From Candidatus Nitrosopumilus sp. (lineage in GTDB: Archaea > Thermoproteota > Nitrososphaeria > Nitrososphaerales > Nitrosopumilaceae): a stretch of 64,000 nt of DNA. Of the stretch, positions 44,859 to 64,000 are shown in pieces (the first letter of the stretch is position 1; the number at the start of each line of letters is the position of its first letter). The notes under the pieces are model-generated. The model had not been told where the DNA came from. It saw only the letters and a program-made list of their open reading frames with translations, and did not search any database. Made by a program: the position numbers and the translations under genes. The stretch covers positions 1 to 64,000 of the forward strand of contig NZ_JANQTA010000013.1 of the NCBI RefSeq assembly GCF_028278985.1, written 5' to 3'.

Positions 44859-46610
44859 ATGATGATGTCTTACAAACAATTTGCAATACTATTTCTTGCT
44901 ATTACAGTATTTTTTCCAGCAAACAGCGTGTTTGGACATGGTCTGGGTTTAGATAAAATTTCATCAATTGATATTCAAGGAAAAGAAATTTCTATTTCTG
45001 TTGAAATGCCATTAAGTTTTGAAAATGGTGAAGATCAAATTACTTTAACTGCAACTGAAGATGAAACCAAAGAAAATGCAAAAAATGTGACCTTTCTTAT
45101 TGGCTTGTTTCATGATAATACAATGATTTTTAGAAATTACTTTTTTGCAGAAAATGGAGTTTTACCTCTCAAAATTTCATCTCAATCAGGATATGATAAT
45201 TTTGTAATTAATGGCAAACAAGATTCTCTTCTTGGAGCCTATCATGGAACTGAATCTTCTCCTATTGAGATTGCAGGACCAATATTTGATGAAGGTGGAT
45301 TATACACATTTGAAATTGAAGTAAGAACAATTGATGAGCCTACAAACATCATTGAAAATTCTGGTGTTCATGTGGCTGATTTGAGTGTAGCAACTACATC
45401 ATCATACATTGAAAAAGATTCTGAAGCAAATGATGTTGAATTTAGAATGAAATCATATTTTGATAAAATCTCAGCTTTTGAATACAATCCTGAAACAAAA
45501 CTAGTTACATTTGAGATGCCATTTGATTGGAGCGAAAATAAAATGTCACATATTCCCGTTGTTCATGAAGAAGTACATTTCCCTAAAGACTTTGTTGAAT
45601 TCTTGTCACCAAGCTATACTGGACATGCAAATGGAATAGAGTTGTTCAAAGCTTCAGTAACAATTGATGATTATTCTAAAGAAGATGAAAGGATTGTTCA
45701 TTTTGTTTTATTGCAAGATCATTTGAGATTTATAAAAAATGAAATGAAAAAATCTGGAGATCCATTACCAGAAAATATTGTATTTACACTAGCTACAAAT
45801 GAAGAAGTATCTTTTCCATTAACTGCATATACAAAAAGTGAAGATTTTCAAATAAATCTCTCATGGGATCCTGTTGAAATAATACCTGGATTAAATACAA
45901 ATTTTGTATTTACTGTTCGTGATGGTCCAACTGGAGAACCTCTTAGAAATTCTGACTATACATTTGTAATTCTTCAACGTGGTCAGGAAATTCATAGAGC
46001 ATTAGGTCAAGCCCAAGTAGGCGGAGAATTTGAAAAATTCACTTTTGATCAAACCCAAACAGGTCCTACAATAATTAAATTTGAAAATATTAGAAACACA
46101 GGTCAAGAAACTGAATTTGGAATTGTGATAGCACCTACTTCGGTTTCATTAAACAATGCTCCAAATGAAATTGAAGATTCTTCAGAAACTATTCAAAATG
46201 AAGGACAGAAATCAGATAATCTTCAAGTTGAAGCAGAAGGCGGAGGTTGTCTTATTGCAACTGCAGCATATGGAACAGAATTAGCCCCTCAAGTGCAATT
46301 CTTGAGAGAAGTTAGAGACAATACTGTAATGAGCACTTCATCTGGAATATCATTCATGACAGGCTTTAACCAATTGTACTATTCATTCTCACCAACTATT
46401 GCTGATTGGCAAAGAGGTAACCCAATGTTCCAAGAAGCAGTTAGAGCATTCATTACTCCAATGGTATCAACTTTATCGATTATGACAATAGCTGATAGTA
46501 GTTCAGAAATTGAAGTGTTAGGAATAGGAATTTCAGTAATTGTACTAAATTTGGGAATGTATATTGTAGCACCTGTAATTGTTGCATGGAAAGTCAAAAA
46601 GCGATTTTGA
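44859..46610 (+). CDS. Secreted FGHGLG-family protein with CFI-box-like C-terminus
   Basis: Signal peptide then FGHGLGLDKISS; conserved VVHEEVHFPKDF; C-terminal GGGCLIATAAYGTELAPQVQFLREVRDNTV...FNQLYYSFSP. Confidence 0.75.
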   Translation: MMMSYKQFAILFLAITVFFPANSVFGHGLGLDKISSIDIQGKEISISVEMPLSFENGEDQITLTATEDETKENAKNVTFLIGLFHDNTMIFRNYFFAENGVLPLKISSQSGYDNFVINGKQDSLLGAYHGTESSPIEIAGPIFDEGGLYTFEIEVRTIDEPTNIIENSGVHVADLSVATTSSYIEKDSEANDVEFRMKSYFDKISAFEYNPETKLVTFEMPFDWSENKMSHIPVVHEEVHFPKDFVEFLSPSYTGHANGIELFKASVTIDDYSKEDERIVHFVLLQDHLRFIKNEMKKSGDPLPENIVFTLATNEEVSFPLTAYTKSEDFQINLSWDPVEIIPGLNTNFVFTVRDGPTGEPLRNSDYTFVILQRGQEIHRALGQAQVGGEFEKFTFDQTQTGPTIIKFENIRNTGQETEFGIVIAPTSVSLNNAPNEIEDSSETIQNEGQKSDNLQVEAEGGGCLIATAAYGTELAPQVQFLREVRDNTVMSTSSGISFMTGFNQLYYSFSPTIADWQRGNPMFQEAVRAFITPMVSTLSIMTIADSSSEIEVLGIGISVIVLNLGMYIVAPVIVAWKVKKRF

Positions 46611-46681
46611 ATTCTTAGTGGTACATACATCAAACTATCAAGAACTATTTAGATTCATAAAATCCAAATTCAAGTAAGAAT

Positions 46682-48277
46682 TTGAAAAGAAATATCATAA
46701 TATTACTTCTGGGACTTTCAGGCGTTACTGCATTATTTTATGAAATTATTTGGATTCGTCCATTATCACTAGTTTTTGGAACAACTGTTTACGCTGTATC
46801 TACTATTATTGCGTCGTTTATTCTTGGTCTAGCAATTGGTAGCTGGCTTGCAGGAAAATACTCACATAAAATTTCTAATCCACTAAAGTTTTTTGCATTT
46901 GTTCAAATTGGCATCGGAACTTATGGTGTTTTGTTATTACCTGTTTTTAGTTCATTACCTCCAATTTATTTGGCAATTTATCAAGCTGTTCTTCCAAATC
47001 AAATATTATTTTTCATTGTACAAATTCTTCTGTCAATTCTTTTGATATCTATTCCTGCAATTTTGATGGGTACCACATTACCAATTATGATTAAAGCATA
47101 TGCAAAGAAATTTGAATCAATTGGTTATGACGTTGGAAAGTTAGATGCTGCAAATAGTATTGGTGCTGTAATAGGCACACTGGTTGTTGGATTCATTTTG
47201 ATTCCGTTTTTAGGTATTCAAGCCAGCTTGATAATTACTGCTTTAATTAATTTAGGAATGGGAACAATCATAATTGGAACAAATAGATTCATCAAATTTC
47301 GATGTTTGTCGGCAATAGCAGTAATTTTGGTTCCTTTTTTCATAATTTTTCCAACCTATGATGTTGAACCTCTTACTCTACCCCTTTATCAAATTCTGAA
47401 TGAAGGTAAAATGAGCGTTAATTCCTATCAACATATGATTGATAATCAACAACTACTTCATTATGATGAGAGTGCTTACTCAACAATTACTGTAATTGAA
47501 ACTGATCTCAAAAGATTACACATTAATGGAAAATCTCAATGTGCGATTGGACCAATGGGTATTTTTCGAGATGGTGTAAATCTTGCCAAATTACCAAGTG
47601 AACTTTATTATCATAATTTCAAAACCTTTCCAAAAACTGCGTTAAATGTAGGATTAGGATGTGGGGACACTTCTCAATGGTTTGCTATTCATGGAATTGA
47701 TGTAACTACTCTTGAAATTGATCCTGCGGTAATTGAGGTAAATGAAAAGTTCTCACCAAAGTACATTGATCATAATCTAGTCATAGATGATGGTAGAAAT
47801 TGGTTGTTGAGGACAAATCAAACTTTTGATGTTATTACTGGGCAACCATATGAGCCCTATGATAGTCATAGTAGTTTGTTTACCAAGGAATATTTTGAAC
47901 TTCAAAAACTTCGTTTATCTGAGAATGGAATATCTTCCCAATGGGTTCCAATGTATACTATGACAATGGATGATTTTTTTATTTTCTATAACACATACAA
48001 TTCAGTTTTCCCCCATGTTCATATTTACAATAATCTTGATTCAACTGTTGACTCATTGTTGTTTATAGGAAGTAAACAACCAATTTTGCCAATTTACGAT
48101 AAATATTACATCGGAAGTGATTATGATATTGAACCAAGAAAAACTGAATTAAACACAGATGATAAGACTGTTTTAGAAACAAATACTGCACTAAATCTTT
48201 ACACTCCAGATAGAGAAAGAATTACAGAAAAAGAATTTCTTGTAGAATTATTTTCTCCATCCTCAGAAAATTCTTAA
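46682..48277 (+). CDS. Multi-TM protein fused to a spermidine-synthase-like domain
   Basis: N-terminal TM helices; LNVGLGCGDTSQW...VTTLEIDPAVIEV; LVIDDGRNWL. Confidence 0.78.
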   Translation: MKRNIIILLLGLSGVTALFYEIIWIRPLSLVFGTTVYAVSTIIASFILGLAIGSWLAGKYSHKISNPLKFFAFVQIGIGTYGVLLLPVFSSLPPIYLAIYQAVLPNQILFFIVQILLSILLISIPAILMGTTLPIMIKAYAKKFESIGYDVGKLDAANSIGAVIGTLVVGFILIPFLGIQASLIITALINLGMGTIIIGTNRFIKFRCLSAIAVILVPFFIIFPTYDVEPLTLPLYQILNEGKMSVNSYQHMIDNQQLLHYDESAYSTITVIETDLKRLHINGKSQCAIGPMGIFRDGVNLAKLPSELYYHNFKTFPKTALNVGLGCGDTSQWFAIHGIDVTTLEIDPAVIEVNEKFSPKYIDHNLVIDDGRNWLLRTNQTFDVITGQPYEPYDSHSSLFTKEYFELQKLRLSENGISSQWVPMYTMTMDDFFIFYNTYNSVFPHVHIYNNLDSTVDSLLFIGSKQPILPIYDKYYIGSDYDIEPRKTELNTDDKTVLETNTALNLYTPDRERITEKEFLVELFSPSSENS

Positions 48278-48318
48278 AAATCCCTCAACTTTTTATTACA
48301 AGTCTAGTATTACTCAAT

Positions 48319-49389
48319 ATGACCAAGACTGATAATTTATTAAAAAAAATTCAAACTCTTATCTTACAAAACAAATTCAAACAAGCATTAACCACATGTG
48401 ATTCCATTTTAAAAATAGATAAAAAAAATTTTCAGGCAAATTTTAACAAAGCAAATCTTTTAGCAGAAATTGGATTTCATAAAAAATCATTATCCTATTA
48501 CAATAAGGCACTAAAGATTATTCCGAATGAACCTTTGACTTTGTTTAATCTTGGTACAACTTTGTATGATTTGGACAAGTATGATGATGCCATCGAAATC
48601 TTTGATAAATTAATAAAAATTCAACCAAAAAATTCTGATGCAATATGTAACAAGGCAAATACACTTGTGGCTCTTGGCAAACATAAGCAAGCAATATCAA
48701 CATATGATAAAGCTTTGAAAATAAATCCAAATGACATTATAATTCTTAACAACAAAGGAATCGTTTTTGCTGGAAAATCAAGACATAAACAAGCAATAAA
48801 GTGCTTTGATGCATCTCTGAAGATTAATCCTGTAGATATGGATACTTTATGTAATAAAGGAAATTCTTTGGCAGAACTTGACAATTTTAGTGAGGCTGCT
48901 GTATGTTTTGAATCTGCTTTAGAAATAGAACCCTCTGATATTGATGCATGTTTTAGATTGGGGGTTGCTTATTCAAATACAAATAGACCAAGAGAGGCGA
49001 TTTTATGTTTTAACAAAGTTCTAAAAAAAGATCGTTCTAATACTGACGCACTAATTAACAAAGGACTTGCATACATTACATTAGAAAAATTTAAGCATGC
49101 AATTTCATGTTTTGAGAAAGCTTTGGGAATTGACAAGCAAAATACTGATGCAATGTACCATAAATCACAATGCCTAGTTGAAATTGGCAAACATACTCAA
49201 GCAATATCTTTACTTCGCAAGATTGCTAAAAAAGAAAATACTCATGATCATCATGATCATGAACATCATGATCATGAACATCATGATCATTCACATTTGT
49301 CCCTAAAAGACAAAATTCTCAAAGACACACATTTTGCAAAAGTGAAAAAAGAAAAAATCTATTCATCCTTTATTCAGAATCTTCATTAG
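48319..49389 (+). CDS. TPR-repeat protein with His-rich C-terminal tail
   Basis: At least seven TPR-like units; tail THDHHDHEHHDHEHHDHSH. Confidence 0.85.
   Translation: MTKTDNLLKKIQTLILQNKFKQALTTCDSILKIDKKNFQANFNKANLLAEIGFHKKSLSYYNKALKIIPNEPLTLFNLGTTLYDLDKYDDAIEIFDKLIKIQPKNSDAICNKANTLVALGKHKQAISTYDKALKINPNDIIILNNKGIVFAGKSRHKQAIKCFDASLKINPVDMDTLCNKGNSLAELDNFSEAAVCFESALEIEPSDIDACFRLGVAYSNTNRPREAILCFNKVLKKDRSNTDALINKGLAYITLEKFKHAISCFEKALGIDKQNTDAMYHKSQCLVEIGKHTQAISLLRKIAKKENTHDHHDHEHHDHEHHDHSHLSLKDKILKDTHFAKVKKEKIYSSFIQNLH
49249..49290. repeat. 15-bp tandem repeat CATCATGATCATGAA (~2.8 copies) encoding the His-rich tail
   Basis: Copies at 49249-49263, 49264-49278, 49279-49290 (partial). Confidence 0.9.
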
Positions 49390-49828
49390 TTGAAATTCTG
49401 TTTGGATTAGATGGAATAGGTTTTCCATTTGGAGATATTTTTGGATCTCCGAGAATTGTTGAAAGTGAATTTGTAAATTCATCATTCATATGATGCTCCA
49501 TACCGCAGACAATTTTATCATCTGGTTTGATCTTAAGGTGATTTACCATAAGAACTTCTAACAATCTACTTTTTCTAACAATGTTAGAACCAATTTTTTC
49601 CCCTTTGTCTGTTAACTGAATGTCTAGTTTAGTGTATTTTATCAATTTCATATCATTTAGTTTTTTCATCATTTGTACAACACTTGGTTGTCTGATTCTT
49701 AACAAATTAGCAATTGTACTTACTCTGATTGGTTTACTGCTTTCCTTTGTTAACCACATTGCTTTTAGATACATCTCAACATGCTCTTCTGGAGCAGTTC
49801 CAACATAGAGCTTTTCTTCATTAGTCAT
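49370..49828 (-). CDS. DtxR/MntR-family metal-dependent regulator
   Basis: EMYLKAMWLTKESSKPIRVSTIANLLRIRQPSVVQMMKKLNDMKLI; CGMEHHMNDEF. Confidence 0.85.
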   Translation of the reverse strand: MTNEEKLYVGTAPEEHVEMYLKAMWLTKESSKPIRVSTIANLLRIRQPSVVQMMKKLNDMKLIKYTKLDIQLTDKGEKIGSNIVRKSRLLEVLMVNHLKIKPDDKIVCGMEHHMNDEFTNSLSTILGDPKISPNGKPIPSNPNRISTNEDSE

Positions 49829-50075
49829 CTTTACAGTCAGTTGCCTCTTCGTTAATCTTTAGAATGTAAGTAGACCTAACATTTTTGATCTTTCTAATCT
49901 TCCAAGTTATAGTCTCATTAAGCTCCTCTAATGTTGCTGCTTCTACTTTAACAAAAACATCATATGGTCCAGTAATACATTGTGTTTCCTTGACCTGAGA
50001 AATTCCTTTAAGAATTGAGATGACTTCTTTTTCATTATTTTCTGTGCAATTCAATAAAACAAATGCTGCTGGCAA
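49821..50075 (-). CDS. Stand-alone Lrp/AsnC ligand-binding (RAM) domain
   Basis: AAFVLLNCTENNEKEVISILKGISQVKETQCITGPYDVFVKVEAATLEELNETI; no HTH. Confidence 0.8.
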   Translation of the reverse strand: MPAAFVLLNCTENNEKEVISILKGISQVKETQCITGPYDVFVKVEAATLEELNETITWKIRKIKNVRSTYILKINEEATDCKDD

Positions 50076-50289
50076 TTTTTTCCTCCATTAATTTTCAAAC
50101 ATTATTTAGTTTTGATAATATTAATTATTTTTGTATTAAATTAAATATTATTAAAATTAGGATAATTTTTAATAACTAGTAAATGATATGTTTTTCTGTA
50201 GAAGCTGAAATGATTGCCATTCCTTCATATTGTCAACCACATGTATTTTACACGGCAAGATTTTCAGTTTTTAACATTATGGTGATACA

Positions 50290-50487
50290 ATGAAATTAAC
50301 CAAACAAGATGATCAAGATAATACAATTGCAAATGAGATCAGAATCGAAATAAATGATTCATCTTCAACTCATAACAATAATTTTGCAATTACACTCAAA
50401 TCAAAAAAAGTAGATGTTGATGAACTACTTCCTATGGCAAAAGAATGGGTAGTGGAACATAAACAGAAAACTTGGCTAGAAAAATAA
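50290..50487 (+). CDS. 65-aa hypothetical protein
   Basis: Intact ORF. Confidence 0.5.
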   Translation: MKLTKQDDQDNTIANEIRIEINDSSSTHNNNFAITLKSKKVDVDELLPMAKEWVVEHKQKTWLEK

Positions 50488-50576
50488 TTTTAATTATTTC
50501 AAAGAAATTCAAGCTAGACAATTATTTTTGAATGAAAAAAGAATGATTGATGGTTTTTTCTTTTTTGAAATTGATT

Positions 50577-50756
50577 CTACTGAGATTTGAAAGTTTTAGC
50601 ATCCTCAGGACCAATGATCCTAAAGAGTGAAATTCCAGTCTCTGCACTTGTACCCTTTAAAGCCATTTTACCATTCTTCAAGGTTACAAGTTTAGGGTCT
50701 ACCATCTTGACTTTCTTTCTTGCTTTTACATCGTAAGCAATCCATTCTTTAGCCAT
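50577..50756 (-). CDS. 59-aa protein resembling a zinc-ribbon family but without cysteines
   Basis: MAKEWIAYDVKARKKVKMVDPKLVTLKNGKMALKGTSAETGISLFRIIGPEDAKTFKSQ*; not in the ORF track. Confidence 0.7.
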   Translation of the reverse strand: MAKEWIAYDVKARKKVKMVDPKLVTLKNGKMALKGTSAETGISLFRIIGPEDAKTFKSQ

Positions 50757-50870
50757 GCCCTCTTCAAGCGTGCATGCGTATATTAAAATGATGCATAATT
50801 AATATTAACAATTATTAAAAATAAAATAATTCTTAATAAGAGATAAATAGTTCAAGTGCTAAATCAGAGC

Positions 50871-50931
50871 ATAATGCCATGCTTCAACCAGATGCAGCCC
50901 TGACAGAATGCGCATTTTCGCATGGCATTAT
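50871..50931 (+). promoter_or_regulatory. Leader-like inverted repeat (12/12 bp arms) with competing internal hairpin
   Basis: ATAATGCCATGC 50871-50882 and GCATGGCATTAT 50920-50931; local ATGCG 50908-50912/CGCAT 50919-50923. Confidence 0.7.
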
Positions 50932-50953
50932 CTAATAATTTGGAGGTAACAAA

Positions 50954-51364
50954 ATGGATGAAAAATCAAGATATCATGTCTATAAGTTAGAACGAGAAAA
51001 GGATCTCTTTTGTAGTGTTCTAAATGTTAGTGGCACAGGAAGTGCAAATATTTACCAAATTGAGGATTCTGATTATTTTTATTCTGCGTATTATTTTTCT
51101 GATGGAAATCTTACTGATGTCAATCTATATTATATTAGAAGTAAGATGTTGCAAGATTTAGTTGCTCGAAAAGGAAATGTGATAAGATTTCAACCAGGTA
51201 CAGGGGAATGGGATTCTCATCAAGGTGAACTAAAAGATATCTATTGTTGGCTGTTTGTTCTTAGAATCATGTTTTCATCAGCTAAAGAGATTAAAGAAAT
51301 TTACAAACTTGAAGAAGATTATGAAAGAGGATATCGAATAAAGCAATTAGCCATTACAGAGTAG
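50954..51364 (+). CDS. Hypothetical protein preceded by a strong Shine-Dalgarno
   Basis: ORF preceded by GGAGGT. Confidence 0.6.
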   Translation: MDEKSRYHVYKLEREKDLFCSVLNVSGTGSANIYQIEDSDYFYSAYYFSDGNLTDVNLYYIRSKMLQDLVARKGNVIRFQPGTGEWDSHQGELKDIYCWLFVLRIMFSSAKEIKEIYKLEEDYERGYRIKQLAITE

Positions 51365-51374
51365 GTAGAGAATT

Positions 51375-51590
51375 ATGTATCTAGATAAAAAAACAATATA
51401 CTTTGATCATGAAGGTGACTTTGAAATTTTAGTTGAAGATGAAGCCTTGGAAGTAGACATGCAATTAATTCAAAAAATAGTCTTTACAGATCATGAAAAC
51501 AAGATTCGATACCTATTTTCAAAATTTAGAACTGAAATGATAGATGATGATCTGATTCAAATTGATAATACAGGCTTACAAAGCAACTAA
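51375..51590 (+). CDS. Hypothetical 71-aa protein
   Basis: ORF just downstream of 50954..51364. Confidence 0.55.
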   Translation: MYLDKKTIYFDHEGDFEILVEDEALEVDMQLIQKIVFTDHENKIRYLFSKFRTEMIDDDLIQIDNTGLQSN

Positions 51591-51959
51591 TTTTACTGAA
51601 TCCATTTTCTTGTCAGTAAGAAATCCTTTTGTGACTGCTTGAATTTTTTTTGAATCTCCGTCCAAGAAAAACATCTCCATACATCTCTCTCCATCAAGTT
51701 TGCTGTGAAGATGTGTTTTAATCAAGTCTTCATAATCATGTTTTATTCCTGAAACTCGATCATCGTACTCATCAGCATGAAGTACAATTAGTACTGCATT
51801 CTGTTTTCCTTTTAATTCTCTTTTTTGCTTTTCTTCTTGTACAAAAGTTCTGATACCTGCCCGAATAATTTCAGACCTACCAGTAAATCCCATTGAGCCC
51901 TGCAATTTATCCAGTTCTTTTAAAATTTCATCGTTAAGTGAGATTGAAACAATTGGCAT
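51576..51959 (-). CDS. NikR-like ribbon-helix-helix metalloregulator
   Basis: VSISLNDEILKELDKLQGSMGFTGRSEIIRAGIR RHH; metal-site pattern KHDYEDLIKTHLHSKLDGERC. Confidence 0.82.
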   Translation of the reverse strand: MPIVSISLNDEILKELDKLQGSMGFTGRSEIIRAGIRTFVQEEKQKRELKGKQNAVLIVLHADEYDDRVSGIKHDYEDLIKTHLHSKLDGERCMEMFFLDGDSKKIQAVTKGFLTDKKMDSVKLVAL

Positions 51960-52014
51960 TAGATTGAATGTTATTAATCATTATTTAAATTTAAATGGAT
52001 TTCTTAATAATTTC

Positions 52015-52029
52015 GGCAAAATTTATGCC
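52015..52029. promoter_or_regulatory. Candidate operator GGCAAAATTTATGCC
   Basis: GGCA/TGCC inverted repeat between divergent nikR-like and znuA-like genes. Confidence 0.3.
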
Positions 52030-52115
52030 TGTTGAATTAATAACATCAAAACCCACTTCTCAAATATTATTAAATTTATATTGTATTATTATTAATTGCA
52101 CAATTAAGTGATTTA

Positions 52116-53459
52116 ATGAAGGGCTCGTCAATTGCTGCTATAGGTGGAGGAATTGCTGCAGCCATAGTTATTGCAGTTGTTTTGACAATGTCAGGAGGAA
52201 TTTCTGAAAGTCCACAAGTTTCTGAAAATTTTATGGGTGAGACAACTGAAACTAGTGTTACTGAACAGGTTGAAAAGATCCAAGTTCTAGCTTCGTTTTA
52301 CCCATATTACGAGTTTACCAAAAATGTAGCAGGAGACTCTGCAACAGTTTCTCAGTACATGCCATCAGGTGTAGAAGCTCATGATTGGGAACCAAGACCT
52401 CAAGAGATTAAATCGTTGCAAGATGCAGATGTTTTTGTCTATAATGGATTAGGAATGGAACCTTATATTGATAAAATGATTGATTCAGGTGAATTTGACA
52501 ATGTTTTGTTTGTCAAAGTATCTGAAGGAGTTGAACTGATAAAACCTGAAGAAGATCATGATGACCATGATGATCATGGAGACGAACATGATGATCATGC
52601 AGAAGAAGGCCATGATGCACATGCTGAAGACTTTGCAAAAGAGATTGAACATGTTGTAGAAGAATTTGAGCATGGTCACATTGATTCCACTAAAGCACTT
52701 ACTGAACTAGAAGAGATTCTAGGTGAGCATGAAGGAGATGGACATGATCACGGAAATGAAACTATTGAAAAAATTGAAGCAGTCATACATGAAATTGAAG
52801 ATGGACATATGAGTGCAGAAGAAGGATTTGAAGAGATTCATCATATTGTTTTAGAAATTAAAGAAGAAGATCATGATGACCATGATGATCATGGAGACGA
52901 AGGTGGACATCACCATCATCACCACGACTTTGAATTTGATCCACACATTTGGTTGGACCCAATCTTGGTAAAACAACAAGTAAACAATATTCGTGATGCA
53001 CTAATTGAAGCCGATCCACAAAACAAAGAACAATATGAACAAAATGCTATGACATACAATCAAGAACTAGATGACTTAGATATGAAATTCAAGTCATCAT
53101 TAGCATCATGCAATAAAGATACCTTTGTACCATATCATAATGCATTTACATATCTTGCAGAAAGATATGATCTCAAAGTAATGGCTCTTGGTGGATTAGC
53201 TCCTAGAGCAGAGGCCACAGGTGCTGAGATTAAAGAGTTTGTTGACTTTGTAAGAGAAAATGATGTTAAAGTAATTTTTAATGAAGAGTTAGTTGACCCA
53301 AGACTAGCAGAAATCATTGCAGAAGAGTCTGGCGCAAAAGTAATGCTGTTCAGTCCATTAGAGGCATTAGCACCTGAAGAAGTAGGGAAAAACATATCAT
53401 ACATCGAAAAGATGGAACAAAATATGGATTCCCTAAAGGTGGCCCTTGAGTGTCAATGA
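52116..53459 (+). CDS. ZnuA-like zinc-binding ABC component with long His/Asp-rich insert
   Basis: ASFYPYYEFTKNVAGDSATVSQYMPSGVEAHDWEP; FDPHIWLDP; FVPYHNAFTYLAERY; insert with DHDDHDDHGDE and HHHHHH. Confidence 0.88.
   Translation: MKGSSIAAIGGGIAAAIVIAVVLTMSGGISESPQVSENFMGETTETSVTEQVEKIQVLASFYPYYEFTKNVAGDSATVSQYMPSGVEAHDWEPRPQEIKSLQDADVFVYNGLGMEPYIDKMIDSGEFDNVLFVKVSEGVELIKPEEDHDDHDDHGDEHDDHAEEGHDAHAEDFAKEIEHVVEEFEHGHIDSTKALTELEEILGEHEGDGHDHGNETIEKIEAVIHEIEDGHMSAEEGFEEIHHIVLEIKEEDHDDHDDHGDEGGHHHHHHDFEFDPHIWLDPILVKQQVNNIRDALIEADPQNKEQYEQNAMTYNQELDDLDMKFKSSLASCNKDTFVPYHNAFTYLAERYDLKVMALGGLAPRAEATGAEIKEFVDFVRENDVKVIFNEELVDPRLAEIIAEESGAKVMLFSPLEALAPEEVGKNISYIEKMEQNMDSLKVALECQ
52548..52586 (+). 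repeat. 39-bp exact direct repeat, copy 1
   Basis: gaagaagatcatgatgaccatgatgatcatggagacgaa. Confidence 0.9.
52863..52901 (+). repeat. 39-bp exact direct repeat, copy 2
   Basis: Same 39-mer 315 bp (105 codons) downstream. Confidence 0.9.
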
Positions 53460-54259
53460 CAAGTGTTTTAGAAGTAAAAGATCTCGTAATAGGATACGAC
53501 AATCATTTAGCAGTTGATAAAATTAGTTTTGATGTTCAAGAAGGTGATGTTCTTGGCATTGTAGGCCCCAATGGTGCTGGAAAAACAACATTGTTCAGAG
53601 CAATTTTAGGCTTGCAGAAATATTCTGGAAAGATCAAAATGTTTGGGTTAGAGGATTCAAAGTATCATTCAATAATTCCATTGATTGGATATGTTCCACA
53701 AAAGGTAATTTTTGAGCCAAACTTTCCTGCAACAGTTTTTGATGTTGTATCTATGGGAATAATACCTAACAAAAAACTTCTCAAAGGTGCAAAGATTGTG
53801 CAACAATGTGGTTGCTGTTGGAATCGTTTTTACAGTGATCTTGGAAGCAACTACAAGAAGGTTATGGGATCTCTTAAAACTGTAGGAATTGAATCTCTGA
53901 AAAATAGAAGAATTGGAGAACTATCAGGAGGAGAATTACAACGTGTCTTTATTGCAAAATCTCTTGTCAAGGATCCCTTGTTGTTAATTCTCGATGAACC
54001 TGTAACAAGTGTAGATGCAGAATCACAGAAAAAATTCTATGAATTGATTAAAAAAATCAATCAAGAAAATCAAATTACAATTGTTTGGTCATCGCATGAC
54101 TTGGATGCAATATCAAAATATGCAAGTAGAGTTGCATGTATGAATAAAAAATTATTTTTCCATGGAGAAAAAGAAGAATTTTTCTCAAACAAAGATCTTC
54201 TAAGAACATATACTGAATCATCAATGCAAATGCACATGCATAATCATGACATGCATTAA
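53456..54259 (+). CDS. ZnuC-like ABC ATPase with Cys-containing insertion
   Basis: GPNGAGKTTLF, LSGGELQRVFIAKSL, LDEPVTSVD; insert QQCGCCWNRFYSDLGSNY; ATGA overlap with the znuA-like gene. Confidence 0.88.
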   Translation: MTSVLEVKDLVIGYDNHLAVDKISFDVQEGDVLGIVGPNGAGKTTLFRAILGLQKYSGKIKMFGLEDSKYHSIIPLIGYVPQKVIFEPNFPATVFDVVSMGIIPNKKLLKGAKIVQQCGCCWNRFYSDLGSNYKKVMGSLKTVGIESLKNRRIGELSGGELQRVFIAKSLVKDPLLLILDEPVTSVDAESQKKFYELIKKINQENQITIVWSSHDLDAISKYASRVACMNKKLFFHGEKEEFFSNKDLLRTYTESSMQMHMHNHDMH

Positions 54260-54274
54260 CTACAGGTGAAATGA

Positions 54275-55129
54275 ATGGTTCTTGAAGCTCTATCTTATGG
54301 ATTTATTCAGAAAGCACTCATTTCAGGAATTGCTGTTGCAATAATTTGCTCTTTTATGGGAACATTTCTTGTATTGAGACGTTATTCTTTGTTTGGAGAT
54401 GGAATTGCTCATGTTTCATTCGGTGGAGTAGCAGTTGGATTATTCTTAGGAATATTTCCAATTTGGACTGCGTATCTTCTTGCAATAGCTGGAGGAATAG
54501 GACTTCAAAAACTTCGACAGAGTACAAAGATTTCAGGAGATGCTGCTGTAGCTGTTGTTTTAGTCACAGGATTGTCTGTAGGCGTAATTCTGGTAAGCTC
54601 ATCTGGTGGTTTCTCAGTAGATTTGTTTAGTTTCTTGTTTGGAAGTATACTGCTAATTGGCAATGATGATACTATGATAATTCTAACAATTAGTACAGGA
54701 ATTATTGTGACGCTTGTGGCATTACGAAAACAATTCTTACAGATTACATTTAATGAAGAGCAAGCAAAAATTTCAGGATTACCAGTCACTCTGTTAAATT
54801 ATGCCTTTGTAATTTTGGCTGCTGTAACAGTTGTAACTTCTATGAGATTGGTTGGAATCTTGTTGATATCCGCATTAATTGTAATTCCTAACATTAGTGC
54901 AATGATGTTTGGTAAAGGATTCAAACAGACAGTTGGAATATCGATGCTAATTTCAGTTGTATCTGTGGTTAGTGGAATTCTTTTGTCATACTATTACAAT
55001 CTTGCACCATCAGGAATTATTGTGGTTGTTGCAGTTTCAATACTGGTAGGAATTCTTATAGCAAGATCTGCAGGAATAATAAGAAAGGTCGACATTAAGA
55101 AAAAATCTGAAATTTCACATAACAGCTAA
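54275..55129 (+). CDS. ZnuB-like ABC permease
   Basis: GTFLVLRRYSLFGDGIAHVSFGGVAVGLFLG; SMRLVGILLISALIVIP. Confidence 0.9.
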   Translation: MVLEALSYGFIQKALISGIAVAIICSFMGTFLVLRRYSLFGDGIAHVSFGGVAVGLFLGIFPIWTAYLLAIAGGIGLQKLRQSTKISGDAAVAVVLVTGLSVGVILVSSSGGFSVDLFSFLFGSILLIGNDDTMIILTISTGIIVTLVALRKQFLQITFNEEQAKISGLPVTLLNYAFVILAAVTVVTSMRLVGILLISALIVIPNISAMMFGKGFKQTVGISMLISVVSVVSGILLSYYYNLAPSGIIVVVAVSILVGILIARSAGIIRKVDIKKKSEISHNS

Positions 55130-55135
55130 ACTAAT

Positions 55136-57916
55136 CTAAGAATCAATCAAATCGTTTAGTCTTCGCTTGTCATGTATGCTCTTTACATAAAATAATGAAG
55201 TTGCAATTATTCCTGCAGCTATTAGTGGTGATGCAAGTTCTGTATACTTTATTTCAGTTCCATCTGTTGATTGTATTTTTGTTGAAGATACTGGAATTTC
55301 TGTCATTTTAATTGTACCAATCTTACTTTCTTGTTGTTCAACAAACCAAACATTACCATTTCCATCTGATGTCATAAATTGAGTAAATGATGTTTCAGTT
55401 GGAATAGGAATTTCTAATAAATTATTGTTATCTGGATCATAAACTGCAATTGAATCAATGACATGTTGAGCAAACCAAACATTACCATATCTATCAAATG
55501 TCATTCCAAATGGAAGTGATTCACTATCTGGAACTGTAACTTTTTCAAAAGTCTCTAAAACTGGATCAAATCTACTTAAGGCTAATCCAGTGTGCTCTGT
55601 TACCCATATACTTCCATCTTCATCAAATAGCAATGCTTCAGGACCTTGAAGAATTGTATCTGATGAAATTTGGGTTAATTCATTATTTTCAGGCTCAATA
55701 TAGCCTATTTTTCCTGAACCAGTTGCTGTATACCATATTTTTCCTTCACTGTCAATACCCAAGGCAAATGGCAATGATTCTTTTTCAGGTAAAGTAATCT
55801 CATCAAAAGTATCACTTTGAGGAGAATATTTCAAAATCTTATCCTTGTTTACAATTGTAATCCAGATGTTTCCATCAAAATCAGCTTGAATAAAGAGAGG
55901 AGTGTTATCTGAAATTACAGGATCTAATTTTGGAAGTGTTTTAGTTGTTATTTCTTTTGTTTGAAGATTTAGATATCCTATTTGATTTCTTGGAGTATCA
56001 ACAAACCAAATGTTTTCGTTATTGTCTTGTGTAAGAAAAGTTGTTCCCAATCCATCAAAAGAATATGGTGTAAACTCTTGAGTATCAAGTGAGAATTCCC
56101 AAAGTCTTGGAGATGATGCATCACTTACCCATAAGGAATTTTTTCCATCATACAATGCGTAAAGTGGTTTTGATTCTTCTGGTAATTCATATTCTACAAC
56201 TTGCATTTGAATATCTCCAAGTCGTGGCTTTACAAGTAAATTGAGAATTTTTGATTCATTTGCGTTTTCGGTTCGTTGAGCTTCAACTTCTACTAACCAT
56301 TCACCAGAAAATCCAAATGTAATTTCTCCTTGGAATTCGATTGGTTTGTTTTCAGTTTGTTTAACTATTTCCATAGGAATTTCAATTGGAGAAATATTTT
56401 TTGATGGATTTGAAATTTTTACTTTTACTTGTTCTGAGTCATAAAGCTGATTTCCATCAAAGTCCGTTGCTTTTACAGTAATTGTGTTTGAACCGCTTGT
56501 AAATGGTGAAATTTCAATGTTAAACTTTGTATTCTCAGTAAATTCAATTGTGTTAAAACCATATACTGCTTCCTGTGCATCAACTCTTTGAATCTCTCCT
56601 GCAGGTAGTGTTCCATTAGTTAGTAATGCAACTACCCCTAGCAAAATTATTCCTAAAGCAGCATCAACTTTGAGAGATTTTTTCAATTTTTTATGTACAG
56701 TAATTTTTCCTGATGAGAAATTCTTTTCAGCATTTTTTTGTAGTCTAAATTGGAAGAATCCCCCTAATCCAACCATGGCTGCAGCGATTGCAATTTTCAG
56801 CATGATTAGTTGTCCAAATACTGATGCAGTGATTAATCCAACGTCACTTTCAACAAACCACATCAGAGTTGGGCCTGTAATAATTACAATTCCTACTGAT
56901 ATGATAAATGCAATTGAAAATCTTGGAATCATTACTAAACTCATTTTTTCTCGATTTTTTTCTTGTAATTGAGAAAATGTTGGAAGTAAAGTAAATACAA
57001 AATAGATTATTCCTCCAATCCAAACTGCTGCAACTAAATTGTGAATGTAATCTAATACGACTGCTCCAAGCTGCTCAGTTGAAGCACCATGACCTATCAA
57101 TGTAGTTGTTGAGATTAATACAAGAGAAACTGCAAGCATTGGAATTTGATTTTTTATTGATAATGATTTTCTTCTATCCATTCCAAACCAAATACCTAGT
57201 AATACAAGAGTGAGAATCATTCTTGCAAACCAAACTGTTCCAAAGTATGTTTGAATTACATCAATAGGTGACGCTTCTAGTCTGATTGTTTGAACAGCAA
57301 TCATTAGAATATCTGAAATGAAAACAAGTATCAGTCCAATTCCTGTTACTGACATAAATTTATCATGATAGAAACTATGAACTTTTCCCAATTCTTCTCT
57401 GATTAGATTTTTGTTTTGAGTACCCCAGATGATTAGCGAAGCAATTACAGAACCTAACACAATTGTTTGTCCAACAAGTCCAGGAAATCTTGCTCCTGCT
57501 TCAGGCAAAAATACTAACTCAGATGTACCCTCAGGAATATCTTCAACATCTATAATTACATCCCCTATTCCGAAGATAAAGGCTCCTGGGACCAAGTGGC
57601 CATCTACTTTGGAAAGAACTTTAGTTGTTGCTGTGTAGACTCCTTCTTCAAGTGGAGGAGTTGTCACAATGATTGATAGCTCACCTTCGTAGTAACTAGT
57701 GTCTCTATTGTCAATTTGATTTCCATTTTGATCAAAAACTCTCATTTCACTAAAATCAATGTCAACTGCTTCAGAAAAATACACAATTACTTCAGTTGTA
57801 CCAACTGGCCCATTTGATGAAATGTTAGGAATAGTTTGTTCAGTAAAAGGATGTGCAGCTGCAAATGGAATTGAAATTAATGATAGTGTAAATAATATGA
57901 ATAGAATTTTTTTCAT
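55136..57916 (-). CDS. CopC-CopD-beta-propeller (virginiamycin B lyase-like) triple fusion
   Basis: N-terminal AHPFTEQTIPNISSNGPVGTTEVIVYFSEAV (CopC), multi-TM CopD region, then WF-containing propeller repeats (GNIWITIV, GKIWYTATGSGKIGYI, GNVWFAQH, GNVWFVEQ). Confidence 0.85.
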   Translation of the reverse strand: MKKILFILFTLSLISIPFAAAHPFTEQTIPNISSNGPVGTTEVIVYFSEAVDIDFSEMRVFDQNGNQIDNRDTSYYEGELSIIVTTPPLEEGVYTATTKVLSKVDGHLVPGAFIFGIGDVIIDVEDIPEGTSELVFLPEAGARFPGLVGQTIVLGSVIASLIIWGTQNKNLIREELGKVHSFYHDKFMSVTGIGLILVFISDILMIAVQTIRLEASPIDVIQTYFGTVWFARMILTLVLLGIWFGMDRRKSLSIKNQIPMLAVSLVLISTTTLIGHGASTEQLGAVVLDYIHNLVAAVWIGGIIYFVFTLLPTFSQLQEKNREKMSLVMIPRFSIAFIISVGIVIITGPTLMWFVESDVGLITASVFGQLIMLKIAIAAAMVGLGGFFQFRLQKNAEKNFSSGKITVHKKLKKSLKVDAALGIILLGVVALLTNGTLPAGEIQRVDAQEAVYGFNTIEFTENTKFNIEISPFTSGSNTITVKATDFDGNQLYDSEQVKVKISNPSKNISPIEIPMEIVKQTENKPIEFQGEITFGFSGEWLVEVEAQRTENANESKILNLLVKPRLGDIQMQVVEYELPEESKPLYALYDGKNSLWVSDASSPRLWEFSLDTQEFTPYSFDGLGTTFLTQDNNENIWFVDTPRNQIGYLNLQTKEITTKTLPKLDPVISDNTPLFIQADFDGNIWITIVNKDKILKYSPQSDTFDEITLPEKESLPFALGIDSEGKIWYTATGSGKIGYIEPENNELTQISSDTILQGPEALLFDEDGSIWVTEHTGLALSRFDPVLETFEKVTVPDSESLPFGMTFDRYGNVWFAQHVIDSIAVYDPDNNNLLEIPIPTETSFTQFMTSDGNGNVWFVEQQESKIGTIKMTEIPVSSTKIQSTDGTEIKYTELASPLIAAGIIATSLFYVKSIHDKRRLNDLIDS

Positions 57917-57992
57917 TTACTGTAAAGTCCACATCTGATATTTTAACAGTTTACATATTTCCAAATTTGTACCAATTCGGATAAAGATAATA

Positions 57993-58649
57993 ATGTGCTA
58001 TTATGGTATGATGGTCGTGAAGATAGCACTTTTTGGCCTTATTGGATTATTATTTTCAATAGGTATGATTGCTCCATCATTTGCTCACACTACAGTTCAT
58101 GTAGATCCTTACGAAATTGAAGCAGGATGGGGAACTGAACCTCCAGTTGTTGGAATAAGAAACAATATTGTTTTCAAAATTATTGAACGTGGAGAAAATG
58201 AGGGTACATACACTGGTGTTACTAGTGTTTTCAAAGGTGTTGATGCAACTGTCATGTTTGGTGGTGCATCAAAAGGAATTTCTATTAATTCTGATCCAAG
58301 ACCGGGATATTATTTCTCTCCAATCATTCCAACTAAAACTGGAACATACATGGTTGATTTGAAGGGAGAAATTAGAGGAGTTCCAGTTGATGTCAAAATT
58401 CCAATTGAAGATGTAGAACCAACTGCAATTCTGGATTTTCCTCCATCAAGCAGTGCTGGAGACACTGACATTGCAGCATTAAAGAATGCAATTTCATCTC
58501 TACAACAGGATGTGACCAAACTAAAGTCTGGTGAAACTGAAGTTACAGCTTCTGATGGCGGAGCTGCATATGACTTTGCAATATTTGGATTGTCAATTGC
58601 AGCAGCAGCTATTATCTTGGCAATCATTGCTTTAGTAAAAAGAAAATAG
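57993..58649 (+). CDS. Secreted YcnI-like protein with C-terminal TM
   Basis: Signal peptide then FAHTTVHVDPYEIEAGWG; C-terminal TM followed by KRK. Confidence 0.55.
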   Translation: MCYYGMMVVKIALFGLIGLLFSIGMIAPSFAHTTVHVDPYEIEAGWGTEPPVVGIRNNIVFKIIERGENEGTYTGVTSVFKGVDATVMFGGASKGISINSDPRPGYYFSPIIPTKTGTYMVDLKGEIRGVPVDVKIPIEDVEPTAILDFPPSSSAGDTDIAALKNAISSLQQDVTKLKSGETEVTASDGGAAYDFAIFGLSIAAAAIILAIIALVKRK

Positions 58650-58663
58650 AAAAAGAGGAATTC

Positions 58664-59545
58664 CTAAAATCTTGGAACGACTCTAGATTTTGCAGTAACT
58701 GCTACGATGCTTATGATTGCAACAGCAAGTATCATCATTGCAATTGTTCCAAATTCTGGAACAACATTTGTGAATACTACTTGTTCACCAACTGGTCCTG
58801 TCATTTCATCAATACCATAACCTTGGAAGGTAATGGTAATGTCAACTGGATCAGCGGAGCTTAGTGGTGCAGTTTCGTGCATTCCTGAGCCCTCGTGATG
58901 GTGTGCACCCATATCATCTAGAACTGTTTCACCATTTTGTGTAACAGTGATGTCATGGTTGACATGTTCTGCGTCTACAAATTCTACATGAACTTGCATT
59001 CTCTCACCTGCCATTGGTTCAGAAGTCCAGACTGAAACTTGTGTTCCGTCAGACATCATACCTGTAGCAGATGCTTCTGTGATCAAGTGACCTTTGTCGT
59101 CCATATGATCACCGTGGTCATCATGACCGTGATCATCATGATCATCTTCAGCAGCTCCTACCTCTTGTACAATGATTACTCCTTGCATCCAAGGATGAAC
59201 CATACAGAAGTAATGTTGTTCACCAACTTCAGTTGGAGACCATTCAAATGAACCTCCTGCCATAACTAAACTGCTATCAAATACACCATCTGGTCCATCG
59301 CCTGGATTTCCTGATGTGTAAGTGTGTGCAGCAGTATCAGGGTTTGTAAATATTACAACTCCTCCTACATCAACTGTAGCTGTACTTGGAATGTAACATC
59401 CTTCATCTGTCTCCTCACATCCTGGAGCTCCCGAACCATCGGCAGCTGCAACAGTAACTTCTGAGTGATCTGCAAAAGCTGGTGATCCAACACCTACTGC
59501 TAATGCAAATAGTACGAAGAAAGAGCTAATTGCTATAGTCTTCAT
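58664..59545 (-). CDS. Plastocyanin-like blue copper protein with His-rich linker and PEFG-CTERM
   Basis: HTYTSGN...QHYFCMVHPWMQG copper ligands; DDHDDHGHDDHGDH linker; VVPEFGTIAMMILAVAIISIVAVTAKSRVVPRF. Confidence 0.88.
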   Translation of the reverse strand: MKTIAISSFFVLFALAVGVGSPAFADHSEVTVAAADGSGAPGCEETDEGCYIPSTATVDVGGVVIFTNPDTAAHTYTSGNPGDGPDGVFDSSLVMAGGSFEWSPTEVGEQHYFCMVHPWMQGVIIVQEVGAAEDDHDDHGHDDHGDHMDDKGHLITEASATGMMSDGTQVSVWTSEPMAGERMQVHVEFVDAEHVNHDITVTQNGETVLDDMGAHHHEGSGMHETAPLSSADPVDITITFQGYGIDEMTGPVGEQVVFTNVVPEFGTIAMMILAVAIISIVAVTAKSRVVPRF

Positions 59546-59604
59546 TAGACAGTTTACTAGTTCGGATACATAAAAACCTCACTGGAATTTCCAGTTACTG
59601 GATT

Positions 59605-60459
59605 CTAGTTTTTTCTAAATTGATATAATTTTACAATTCCAAATATAGGAATTCCAGCATACATTCCAATGTTTAGCAGGATTAGAGATATTCCGTATCC
59701 GAGCATTTCTTCTTCTGAATCAATTTCTACATTGTTTAGCAATGATAATGATGAAAGCATGGGTGTTAGTGCTATTTTCATAACTTCTTTGAACATTGGA
59801 TTTTCTCTTTCATAATCAGCTACTGCTGGTGAGAATGAATAATAGAATTGATTAAATCCAGTCATAAATGCAGCACCAGAATTGGTATGCAATACAGTAT
59901 TGTCTCTAAGTTCTCTTAATTGTTGAACTTGTGGTGCTAATTCAGAACCAAATGCTGCAGTTGCAATTAGACAACCACCATTTTCTCCATTTGTATTTTC
60001 ACTTGGTTTTTCTTCTGGAGGGGAAACTGGTTTTTCTTCTGGAGGTGTAACAGGTTGTGCATTTGCTTCTCCTACTTTGATATCAAACGATACAACTTCT
60101 TTTGGAATTGGTTGGAACAAAATTCCTTCAACTTCGAAATCCATTGTATAGATTCCTTCTCCTAAATTAAATTCAATCGGAATTTTTACAGTGCCAGGAG
60201 ATGTGTGTGTTAATGGAATTGGACCAAAAACAGTTTTACCATCTTTTGAAACGGCAATTGTATAATCAATATGTTCTTGAACTTTTTGCGTTTGTGGATT
60301 TATGAAATCTACATTAATTCTAGCTAGAGCATTTGGTTCTATTGGATCGTGATATAATTTTACATCCAAAGTCCCTTTGTCTGTTGGTAAAGTTTGTGTT
60401 TCTGCATATGCAGGAATTAGTAAAAATGGAACTAGTAATAATGCAAAAAGGAGTTTCAT
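59605..60459 (-). CDS. Secreted protein with CFI-box-like C-terminus
   Basis: NGGCLIATAAFGSELAPQVQQLRELRDNTVLHTNSGAAFMTGFNQFYYSFSPAVADYE; PPEEKP linker. Confidence 0.78.
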   Translation of the reverse strand: MKLLFALLLVPFLLIPAYAETQTLPTDKGTLDVKLYHDPIEPNALARINVDFINPQTQKVQEHIDYTIAVSKDGKTVFGPIPLTHTSPGTVKIPIEFNLGEGIYTMDFEVEGILFQPIPKEVVSFDIKVGEANAQPVTPPEEKPVSPPEEKPSENTNGENGGCLIATAAFGSELAPQVQQLRELRDNTVLHTNSGAAFMTGFNQFYYSFSPAVADYERENPMFKEVMKIALTPMLSSLSLLNNVEIDSEEEMLGYGISLILLNIGMYAGIPIFGIVKLYQFRKN

Positions 60460-60574
60460 ACATCAATTCCTAATTTGGCAAATAAAAATTCTACTCCAAT
60501 TTCTAAATCAGAAAATTTTTCATGCGTAGAAATACTGTACCAGCTTTAAATATGGATATTACATAATTTTATCA

Positions 60575-62293
60575 TTGTACCATAAGTTTGGATTATTCAT
60601 TACAATAATTGGAATCTTTACTATTCCAGCTTTAATTCCTGACGCATTTGGTCATGGACTTGGTGGAGATCAAGCACCTCCAATTAGTTTTGAAGGAATG
60701 GAAGTTACTGTAAGAACTGATCTAACTCCCTCTGATATTACAGTAGAGGATATTGATGATGTAAACATGAAAGTTAGATTCTTTGATACTTTGACTGATA
60801 CGACTTTAGAGAAAGTAACGTATAGAATTGAAATCTGGAGAAGTGGAGATTTACTTGCTAGAAATCTGTTTTATGATCTTGATGGACGATTAGATGTTGA
60901 GATTAGACCTGAAGCAAACTGTAATGAAGCAGACTTGTGGAAATGTAGTGTTTACGGTGGTTCGGAGCATGTAACTGCTCCTGGTGCACTTTTCGTATTT
61001 GGTGAAGATTGTAATGATGATAATCTAGAAATTTGTGCTCGACCAACTATTACTGGACCTATATTTGAAAAAGGTGGTTTGTATAATATCCGAATAGATA
61101 TTGAAGGAGCTACTAGTCCAAAAACACTCTTGCCAATCTTGTTAAGTTATGACACTTTTGTCAGTGTTGCTCAAGAACAAAATTTCCTAGTTCAAACTGC
61201 ATCTGCTGAAGAACTTCCAATTATCGTTAAAACTTACTATGATGATGTTGAAAATTTCCAGTTTGATACTTCTGATAATTCAATTAATTTTGATATGGCT
61301 TTTGATTGGAGTCCAGACTATGTTGATTTAGTTCAAGTAGTACATGAAGAAGTTAGAGTTCCAAAATCATTTGTTCCATATGCAGAAGGTAAACAATTCA
61401 AAGGATATGTAAATGGAATAGAAGTTGATCAACGTGCATTACTAAATGATCCATATTCTTATGATGATACAAATGTAGTTCACTTTTTGATAACTAATGC
61501 TGAGTTAACAAGAATTAACGAAGAACTTGGTCCTGAGAATTTTGATTCTAAAAACATGAATTTGAAATTAGTTCCATTAGATGAAGCATCAAAAAGTTCT
61601 ACAGAATTCTATCTTGTAGACACTACAAACTTTGAAGAAGTTGCAACAACTGTAAACATTTCTTGGGATGGAAAATATGGTGCAAATGGAGAAATTCCAT
61701 TTGAATTTACTTTCTTCAAAGAAGATAGACAGTTGCTAAGAGATGTTAGATATTCATACATTGCATTAGATGAAAATAATAACGAAATTGCCCGTTACGA
61801 TGGAGATGATCCTAATAATCCTGGAATTTTCGCAACTGAAGGAATTGACATTCAAAGAATTTTTGTTCCTTCTGAAGGTCAAATGAGAATTGACATTCTA
61901 GTTTATGGAACTGGCTTGGATTATGATCCAACTTATTCTGGAATTGGTTCAGCAATTATTGAAATTGGTCCAGGTGCACCAAGTTCTATTGTAACTCCAC
62001 CTCCTACAACTGAAGAAAAATCTATTCCTAATTGGATAAAAAATAATGCAGAATGGTGGGCAGATGGCGCAATTGATGATGCATCCTTTGTACAAGGAAT
62101 TCAATTCTTAATTGAAGAAGATATTCTAAGAATCCCACCAACTACACAAGGTTCTGGTGATGGCTCTAATGAAATCCCTGGATGGATTAAAAACAATGCA
62201 GGATGGTGGGCAGAAGGATCTATCGATGATGACTCTTTCATTCAAGGAATTCAATTCCTTATCAAAGAAGGAATAATGAGAATCCAATCATAA
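60575..62293 (+). CDS. Secreted FGHGLG-family protein with two WIKNNAxWW repeats
   Basis: [24 protein letters not shown]; two 39-aa C-terminal repeats; TTG start. Confidence 0.78.
62024..62140 (+). repeat. WIKNNAxWW protein repeat 1
   Basis: [39 protein letters not shown]. Confidence 0.9.
62174..62290 (+). repeat. WIKNNAxWW protein repeat 2
   Basis: [39 protein letters not shown]. Confidence 0.9.
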
Positions 62294-62323
62294 GTTTTTA
62301 AATAAATTCTGACAAGTGATAAT

Positions 62324-62530
62324 ATGAAAGACATCAACGACATTATGCCAAAAGTTCCTAACATGAAATGGGGAGCTTTAATGAACAAACCACCTACAAA
62401 TGAAAAATTTGAAGAAATGAACAAAATTTTTCCAAGTAATGGTAAATGGCATACAGTTTTTGAAGAAAACGATTCTGTCACAATAGATGGAAAACAAATT
62501 TGGAAAAAAAATTCTGACAAGTGGACCTAG
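62324..62530 (+). CDS. 68-aa hypothetical protein
   Basis: ORF between two family members. Confidence 0.5.
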   Translation: MKDINDIMPKVPNMKWGALMNKPPTNEKFEEMNKIFPSNGKWHTVFEENDSVTIDGKQIWKKNSDKWT

Positions 62531-62531
62531 C

Positions 62532-64000
62532 TTGAAAATAATTCTTTTATTCACAATCCTTACATTATCACTGGGATTAACATCTAGTATTGATGATGTG
62601 TTTGGTCATGGGGTAGGAAGCGAAACATTTCCTCCAGTTGATCTTAATGGAAAACAAGTAACACTAGAAGTATCTTCTTCTCAAAATGATCCAGAAGCAA
62701 ATGACGATCAACAGATTTCAATTTCTTTTATTGATTTTGATTCTAAAATCACTCTAAGAGATGTAAAATTTTTAATTTCAGCTGAACGTGGAGAAAAATT
62801 TCTTTTTGAAAAAGAATTTGATGCAGACAATGGATTTCTAGTGTTTAATTTTGTATCTGAAGATACAGATAAAATAATTGTAGAAGAAGAAACTGGTGGC
62901 AATTTCTTTGGTTCATTATTAGGCTTGGAAAGTAGAATGATTCACGTTAAAGGACCTAATCTTAGTAATGGAGGATTGTACAAATTTGATGTTTATGTCC
63001 TTGCTGCAGATGGATATTCTAATGTCCTTGCAGAGCCCCTTGTCTTTAATGCCGGAATATCAATAGCTCAAACTACAAGTCATACAATCAATGATGAAAA
63101 TTTTGGATCTCAAACAGTTGATGTTATTACATACTATGATGAAATCTCAAATTTTGAATACAATTCTGACTTGAGAGAAATTAGTTATACAATGCCATTT
63201 GAATGGACTGAGACTAACATTAACCAAACATCTGTAGTTCATGAAGAATTATCCATTCCAAAGTCTTTTGGAGACTTGCTTGCTTCAGGCTTTATCATGA
63301 ATGTTAATGGTATAGACCTATCTGAAGACATTGTAAATATTGATGATTTTTTCACTGACGATAGAGTAGTTCATTTTATCATATATCAGAAAGAACTTTT
63401 GAACATTTTAGAAAATGGTTCTAATGACGATAAAATGAATTTCAAAATTAGACCTAACCTAGAATATTTTCATCTAAGTTCTGTTACTGAGAATGGTCAA
63501 TTTAGAATTCTTGTTTCTTGGGAGCCAAATAATTTACAATCAAACTCTAATGCAAAAATAAATTTTGATGTAACTGATATTTTTCTAAAGAATAGACCTG
63601 TCTCCGCGAATTATGATTTTTCAATTTCACAAGGCAACAAAATTTTACATCAACAAAGTGGAATTAGTACTGATTCAAAAGATGAACATAATGTAGCAGA
63701 ATTCTTTATTCCAGAAGATGTAACTGGAATAATAAATCTAAATTTTTATAATTTGGATGGAAATGATCTAGCACGAACAACAATTCCGGTTGTAGTTGAT
63801 AGAGAAATTGGTGAAACTCCAATTACAATTCCTGAGTGGATTCGTAACAACGCATTGTGGTGGTCTGACAACCAGATAGATGATACAACATTCATTCAAG
63901 GAATTGAATATCTCATAAAAAATGAAATTATTCAAATCCCTCCAACACAACAGCAAGATTCAGAATCAAAAGACATCCCTGAATGGATTCGCAACAATGC
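62532..64000 (+). CDS. Third FGHG[LV]G-family protein, runs off the window
   Basis: TTG start LKIILLFTILTLSLGLTSSIDDVFGHGVGSETFPP; VVHEELSIPKSF; absent from the ORF track because no stop lies in the window. Confidence 0.8.
   Translation, partial: MKIILLFTILTLSLGLTSSIDDVFGHGVGSETFPPVDLNGKQVTLEVSSSQNDPEANDDQQISISFIDFDSKITLRDVKFLISAERGEKFLFEKEFDADNGFLVFNFVSEDTDKIIVEEETGGNFFGSLLGLESRMIHVKGPNLSNGGLYKFDVYVLAADGYSNVLAEPLVFNAGISIAQTTSHTINDENFGSQTVDVITYYDEISNFEYNSDLREISYTMPFEWTETNINQTSVVHEELSIPKSFGDLLASGFIMNVNGIDLSEDIVNIDDFFTDDRVVHFIIYQKELLNILENGSNDDKMNFKIRPNLEYFHLSSVTENGQFRILVSWEPNNLQSNSNAKINFDVTDIFLKNRPVSANYDFSISQGNKILHQQSGISTDSKDEHNVAEFFIPEDVTGIINLNFYNLDGNDLARTTIPVVVDREIGETPITIPEWIRNNALWWSDNQIDDTTFIQGIEYLIKNEIIQIPPTQQQDSESKDIPEWIRNN
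63828..63944 (+). repeat. WIRNNAxWW protein repeat, followed by a second copy cut by the edge (63975-64000)
   Basis: IPEWIRNNALWWSDNQIDDTTFIQGIEYLIKNEIIQIPP; then IPEWIRNNA. Confidence 0.88.

Follow-up and report, generated by a model that had tools for sequence, protein, structure and literature searches.

We describe a previously undescribed family of exported proteins that our searches found only in families of ammonia-oxidising archaea (AOA), and that is best explained, on balance, as an AOA-specific surface copper-acquisition family of the copC/D locus, with a site at a predicted mature N-terminal histidine (His1) and a separate internal site. Three members (P1, P2 and P3; Table 1) are encoded in the window, i.e., the whole stretch of 64,000 nucleotides from Candidatus Nitrosopumilus sp. 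that was analysed here. They are true paralogs, with a pairwise identity of 25–32%. The first-pass annotation had grouped them by a signal peptide directly before HG(L/V)G, a common VVHEE[VL]..PK(D/S)F and a later VHF[VLI], and this grouping is borne out, as the Sec peptides end with [AV][FY][GA] and all motifs are present in the three proteins (NSVFG|HGLG, VVHEEVHFPKDF and VHFVLL in P1; DDVFG|HGVG, VVHEELSIPKSF and VHFIIY in P3; VHFLIT as the later motif of P2). The third ORF had been placed at 62532; the protein itself stands, but its ORF begins at 62487, with 62532 as an alternative start, and extends beyond the window to contig position 64088. Two more members are encoded elsewhere in this genome. 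The fourth carries HGLG and lies on a different contig (C25:92836); the fifth is a divergent copy on the contig of the window (C4:74018), in which FAGGSG replaces FGHGxG and both internal histidines are kept.

When compared to Pfam and NCBIfam, P1–P3 gave no family match except for the C-terminus of P1 (NF041770 CFI_box_CTERM, residues 464–536, E = 2.3e-19), in which a transmembrane segment lies near residues 549–567, and the family profile had no match among PDB sequences at E ≤ 10. Note that the C-terminal repeat IPxWIKNNAxWWAxGxIxDxxFxxGIxxLI (window 62009–62290) is also found at about 20 other sites of the genome and is common to many exported proteins; it is probably a surface-retention module. 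Domain 3 is mobile, and follows plastocyanin-like domains in L107, L108, L115, L124 and L132.

Table 1. Family members, their key residues and the neighbouring genes, in window positions
Feature	Position	Strand
P1, family member of 583 aa; three beta-domains between the signal peptide and a CFI-box/transmembrane C-terminus	44859..46610	+
P1 His27, predicted mature residue 1 (VFG|HGLG)	44937..44939	+
P1 H236-x-E238, invariant in the family	45564..45572	+
P1 D270, also invariant	45666-45668	+
P1 H281, invariant in the family	45699..45701	+
NikR-like regulator of the metal block (identity from sequence reading)	51576..51959	-
Znu-type metal ABC importer: ZnuA 52116, ATPase 53450, permease 54275	52116..55129	+
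CopC-CopD fusion, weak YtkA-like match, Vgb/NHL-type propeller	55136..57916	-
TTCCAAATTTGTACCAAT, match with 2 mismatches to the copper-limitation motif published for N. viennensis, in the divergent copC/D promoter	57959..57976	+
His1-type exported protein (predicted, SFA|HTTVH), GWxxEPP family, relative of probable NVIE_014340	57993..58649	+
Plastocyanin/cupredoxin-like protein with PEFG-CTERM, conserved neighbour	58664..59545	-
CFI-box-CTERM exported protein, conserved neighbour	59605..60459	-
P2, family member of 572 aa; three beta-domains between the signal peptide and two C-terminal WIKNNAxWW repeats	60575..62293	+
P2 His27, predicted mature residue 1 (AFG|HGLG)	60653..60655	+
P2 H257-x-E259, invariant in the family	61343..61351	+
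P2 D292, also invariant	61448-61450	+
P2 H303, invariant in the family	61481..61483	+
P3, family member, 533 aa, architecture as P2	62487..64000 (to window end)	+
P3 His41, predicted mature residue 1 (VFG|HGVG)	62607..62609	+
P3 H252-x-E254 (mature 212, 214), invariant in the family	63240..63248	+
P3 D286 (mature 246)		
P3 H296 (mature 256), invariant in the family	63372..63374	+

The proposal that cleavage exposes a mature His1, and with it the whole family, depended on conservation among homologs, and this conservation was found in the family alignment: the −3/−1 rule is satisfied at the His/Asp site in 87/89 non-redundant homologs (G/A/S at position −1 and A/V/S/I at position −3, each in 88/89), and the internal residues discussed below are kept in at least 344/348 sequences. 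Conservation starts exactly at the predicted residue +1 in the 89 homologs, an acidic residue (Asp or Glu) occupies position 6 in nearly every one of them, and an alternative cut two residues downstream formally passes the rule too, in 85/89. The prediction that fits the family best is a mature chain starting with His; residue 1 is His in 65 homologs, Asp in 18 and Gly or Gln in 6, and His1 is its commonest and most widespread state across the four AOA families. Almost all Asp1 rows (17/18) form one old paralog clade spanning two AOA families, the remaining one being a separate case. It should be noticed that the L158, L193 and L225 members have the mature start Q-H-H-G, whose His3 would be compatible with an ATCUN-like Cu/Ni site; the L158 member is short (about 209 aa) and matches domain 1 only.

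Signal peptides followed by His at +1 are concentrated around the locus. With a home-made scan for signal peptides, which covered 520 kb (about 31% of the genome) and misses P3, they accounted for 4 of the 8–10 candidates in 44–64 kb vs 1 of the 62–90 candidates elsewhere in the genome (Fisher p = 2–4e-4 over three thresholds), and the sole candidate outside 44–64 kb is the fourth family member. On these counts, a purely random His1 cluster was rejected.

On a larger genomic scale, among 250 genomes of the order, 193 have the family and 182 have archaeal AmoA, both in the same four families and each in 33/54 genera, while neither is present in the remaining families of the order; since AOA are one clade, this co-occurrence may only mark the clade and is by itself no proof of a role in ammonia oxidation. 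In a phylum sample of 299 genomes, no family match was identified outside the AOA families. Contigs labelled Phycisphaerales and Proteobacteria (L029 and L084) carry Nitrosopumilus-type copies, probably as a result of MAG binning errors. In 16/20 genomes from the four AOA families, the copC/D fusion has a family member at a distance of no more than 10 kb, when about 0.7 genomes would be expected by chance, and His1 is kept in 22/25 copC/D-linked copies vs 16/34 unlinked copies (p = 0.002, a statistic that ignores phylogeny). Three members of the linked set are without His1, and the genomes of genus g26 carry unlinked copies, most of which have Asp1.

The conserved neighbours of the family are copC/D, the GWxxEPP His1 protein, the plastocyanin-like protein and the CFI-box protein. 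The CopC-CopD fusion matches PF04234 (E = 2.5e-8) and, in agreement with the first-pass annotation, carries a predicted His1 (AAA|HPF) together with DGH (DxH), as in CopC Cu(II) sites. The GWxxEPP protein had been read as YcnI-like with an N-terminal His. Its predicted His1 stands, H1 and one Trp being invariant in 8/8 aligned relatives, but the YcnI identity was rejected because neither the protein nor its N. viennensis relative matched DUF1775 in Pfam even at E = 1. Its comparison with PDB sequences gave no convincing relative (best 0.007, in the C-terminal part). The protein is kept beside copC/D in four AOA families and belongs to no Pfam family. In the window, P3 is followed by an HTH relative of NVIE_014280, and the NikR-like and Znu genes share the cluster of the family in the window, in G101 and in G008. 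Two further products of this region are likely metal sponges, i.e., a TPR protein (48319–49389) with a HDHEHHDHEHHDH tail and ZnuA (52116–53459) with long Asp/His-rich stretches.

A link to copper limitation is provided by the corresponding cluster of Nitrososphaera viennensis, which we infer to be genome G067 from its two adjacent copC/D genes and the positions of the promoter motif. Under copper limitation, 15/25 genes of the N. viennensis cluster were upregulated, a figure given for the cluster as a whole (PMC7785015), and NVIE_014250-014310 were highly upregulated in biofilm (PMC12448741). The G067 family member is the last gene of a same-strand run (copC/D_b, copC/D_a, 014290 and 014280) and is probably NVIE_014250 or a neighbour, the gene count being uncertain. 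The motif described in PMC7785015 occurs in G067 twice before copC/D_b, once before the NVIE_014290-like gene and once before an exported protein with a predicted His1, probably NVIE_014340; other predicted His1 starts in the run are AYA|HFFG, AFA|HNFSG, AFG|HAVP, AYA|HQRQ and SFA|HPIT. In marine Nitrosopumilaceae, the motif was detected with at most 3 mismatches in 28/44 loci having the divergent copC/D pair, with a constant offset among the loci listed, and none was obtained at 2 mismatches after shuffling. Only 4 sites of the whole genome match a close form of the motif with at most 2 mismatches.

The family resembles B. subtilis YcnI/YcnJ (ycnKJI) in that N-terminal-His extracellular proteins (His1 being predicted for the family) are encoded beside a CopC-CopD(-YtkA) importer gene, are surface-anchored and, for the AOA cluster in N. 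viennensis, respond to copper limitation; however, it has three beta-domains, is without DUF1775 and is restricted to AOA. YcnI and the YcnJ CopC domain bind Cu(II) via the N-terminal His and a carboxylate, with a second His in CopC (PMC12154828, PMC8424229), and exchange Cu(II) with each other (PMC12154828). CopC itself shares with the family a predicted mature His1 in a beta-sandwich protein of the same locus, but P1–P3 are without a Pfam match and their His1 domain lacks a second conserved histidine, and CopC occurs separately at the locus as the fusion at 55136; CopC membership was rejected, as P1–P3 do not match PF04234 at E ≤ 1. PmoB has a mature N-terminal His, in an HG start. The likeness of the family to PmoB/AmoB and LPMO lies in the predicted mature N-terminal His, whereas it has no sequence match to them and its internal His are in another domain; membership in these families was rejected on the Pfam, NCBIfam and PDB searches reported above. 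The N-terminal-His proteins of the DUF4198, DUF6702 and anglerase families (PMC12537917) are likewise secreted beta-proteins with His directly after the signal peptide and with metal-gene neighbours, but Pfam matched P1–P3 neither to these nor to any other family. The main text of PMC12537917 names no Nitroso- organism, and a literature search on a histidine brace in Nitrosopumilus or an N-terminal histidine in AOA found nothing relevant.

Within the middle domain, H212 is kept in 345/348 distinct sequences, E214 in 344/348, D246 in 345/348 and H256 in 347/348 (mature P3 numbering), including in members with Asp1, Gly1 or Gln1. The AlphaFold2 model of the whole mature core (mean pLDDT 89.7) has three beta-domains (about 1–155, 155–297 and 298–400, with boundaries inferred from the strand list), and the middle domain modelled alone reached 88.9; its structure search against the PDB gave no significant fold match (best E 0.02). 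In domain 1, no second conserved His was found, only D43 and the acid at position 6 being conserved. Mean-field covariation pairs strand 210–218 with 252–260, and 252–260 with 243–246, but the alignment of 348 sequences is shallow (Neff 174; fewer sequences gave a noisier result) and the pairing is suggestive only, as is the register that would place H212, E214, D246 and H256 on one face, without His1. These data bear on the first-pass proposal that His1, the VVHEE His and the VHF His meet in one histidine-brace copper site. The high conservation of all three positions and the clustering of His1 proteins at a copper locus are consistent with such a brace. However, the internal set is invariant whatever the first residue, lies in a separate predicted domain that the model folds confidently alone, and is grouped by the low-depth covariation without His1. 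A single brace thus becomes less likely and we consider it unlikely; the internal residues seem to form a separate site.

The same invariance, while residue 1 varies, is also in favour of another explanation: the middle-domain H-x-E...D...H would be the main site, with a structural or enzymatic function and with zinc, iron, manganese or calcium as its metal, and His1/Asp1-Gly would have no role other than to fold or cap the N-terminus. H-x-D/E...H resembles the 2-His-1-carboxylate triad, and Znu and NikR-like genes are present in the cluster; however, this explanation leaves aside both the several unrelated exported His1 proteins clustered with copC/D and the fact that His1 is kept more often in copC/D-linked copies, and appears rather improbable to us. 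The multi-Ig proteins, which are the only Foldseek matches of the whole model (with low TM-scores of about 0.2), and the C-terminal repeats common to many surface proteins would be in line with a structural surface or adhesion protein without a metal role, whose proximity to copC/D reflects a shared regulation of envelope genes. Against it stand the invariant His/Glu/Asp/His and the conserved residue 1, the copC/D linkage held over four AOA families, and a middle domain that combines high fold confidence with the lack of a solved relative; we regard this explanation as very improbable.

Our preferred reading remains that of a surface copper-acquisition family with two sites. After export and removal of the signal peptide, the chain would start with His (or with Asp, in the old paralog clade), and its free amine and His1 side chain would serve as copper(II) ligands on the outer side of the membrane, with a carboxylate or His as a partner, while the protein would be retained at the surface by the CFI-box/transmembrane tail or the WIKNNAxWW repeats. 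It may then capture or buffer copper, which would be exchanged with the importer CopC-CopD at the CopC domain of the latter, a capture and hand-over that is modelled on YcnI exchanging Cu(II) with YcnJ. The middle domain would provide the second invariant site, probably metal-binding too and independent of His1. Whereas our data show the family itself, its conservation, linkage and distribution and, by rule, its cleavage signature, it is from sequence and genome context that we infer copper as the metal, capture and hand-over, and the presence of two sites; zinc may be considered as well, because of the NikR-like regulator and the Znu-type importer in the same cluster. As a context, the surface copper-binding system suggested by the first-pass annotation is well supported by the copC/D linkage, the copper-limitation cluster and the promoter motif. 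A further idea, which we hold to be quite improbable, is that the middle domain, with its invariant H-x-E...D...H and no PDB relative, represents a new fold for a metal site and, with a switchable His1/Asp1 ligand, builds an AOA-exclusive copper centre that would either load copper into the archaeal ammonia monooxygenase or itself act as a surface redox enzyme.

Altogether, AOA are globally important microbes that depend on copper enzymes and can be copper-limited, and their copper-uptake proteins beyond CopC/D had been left unnamed. Our study defines a family found only in AOA and linked to the copC/D locus throughout this clade, pinpoints the precise residues concerned (His1, H212, E214, D246 and H256), and suggests that the copper-limitation motif described in soil AOA (PMC7785015) is common to soil and marine species. 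Through their predicted first-residue His or Asp, the proteins of this family are good candidates for catching copper.
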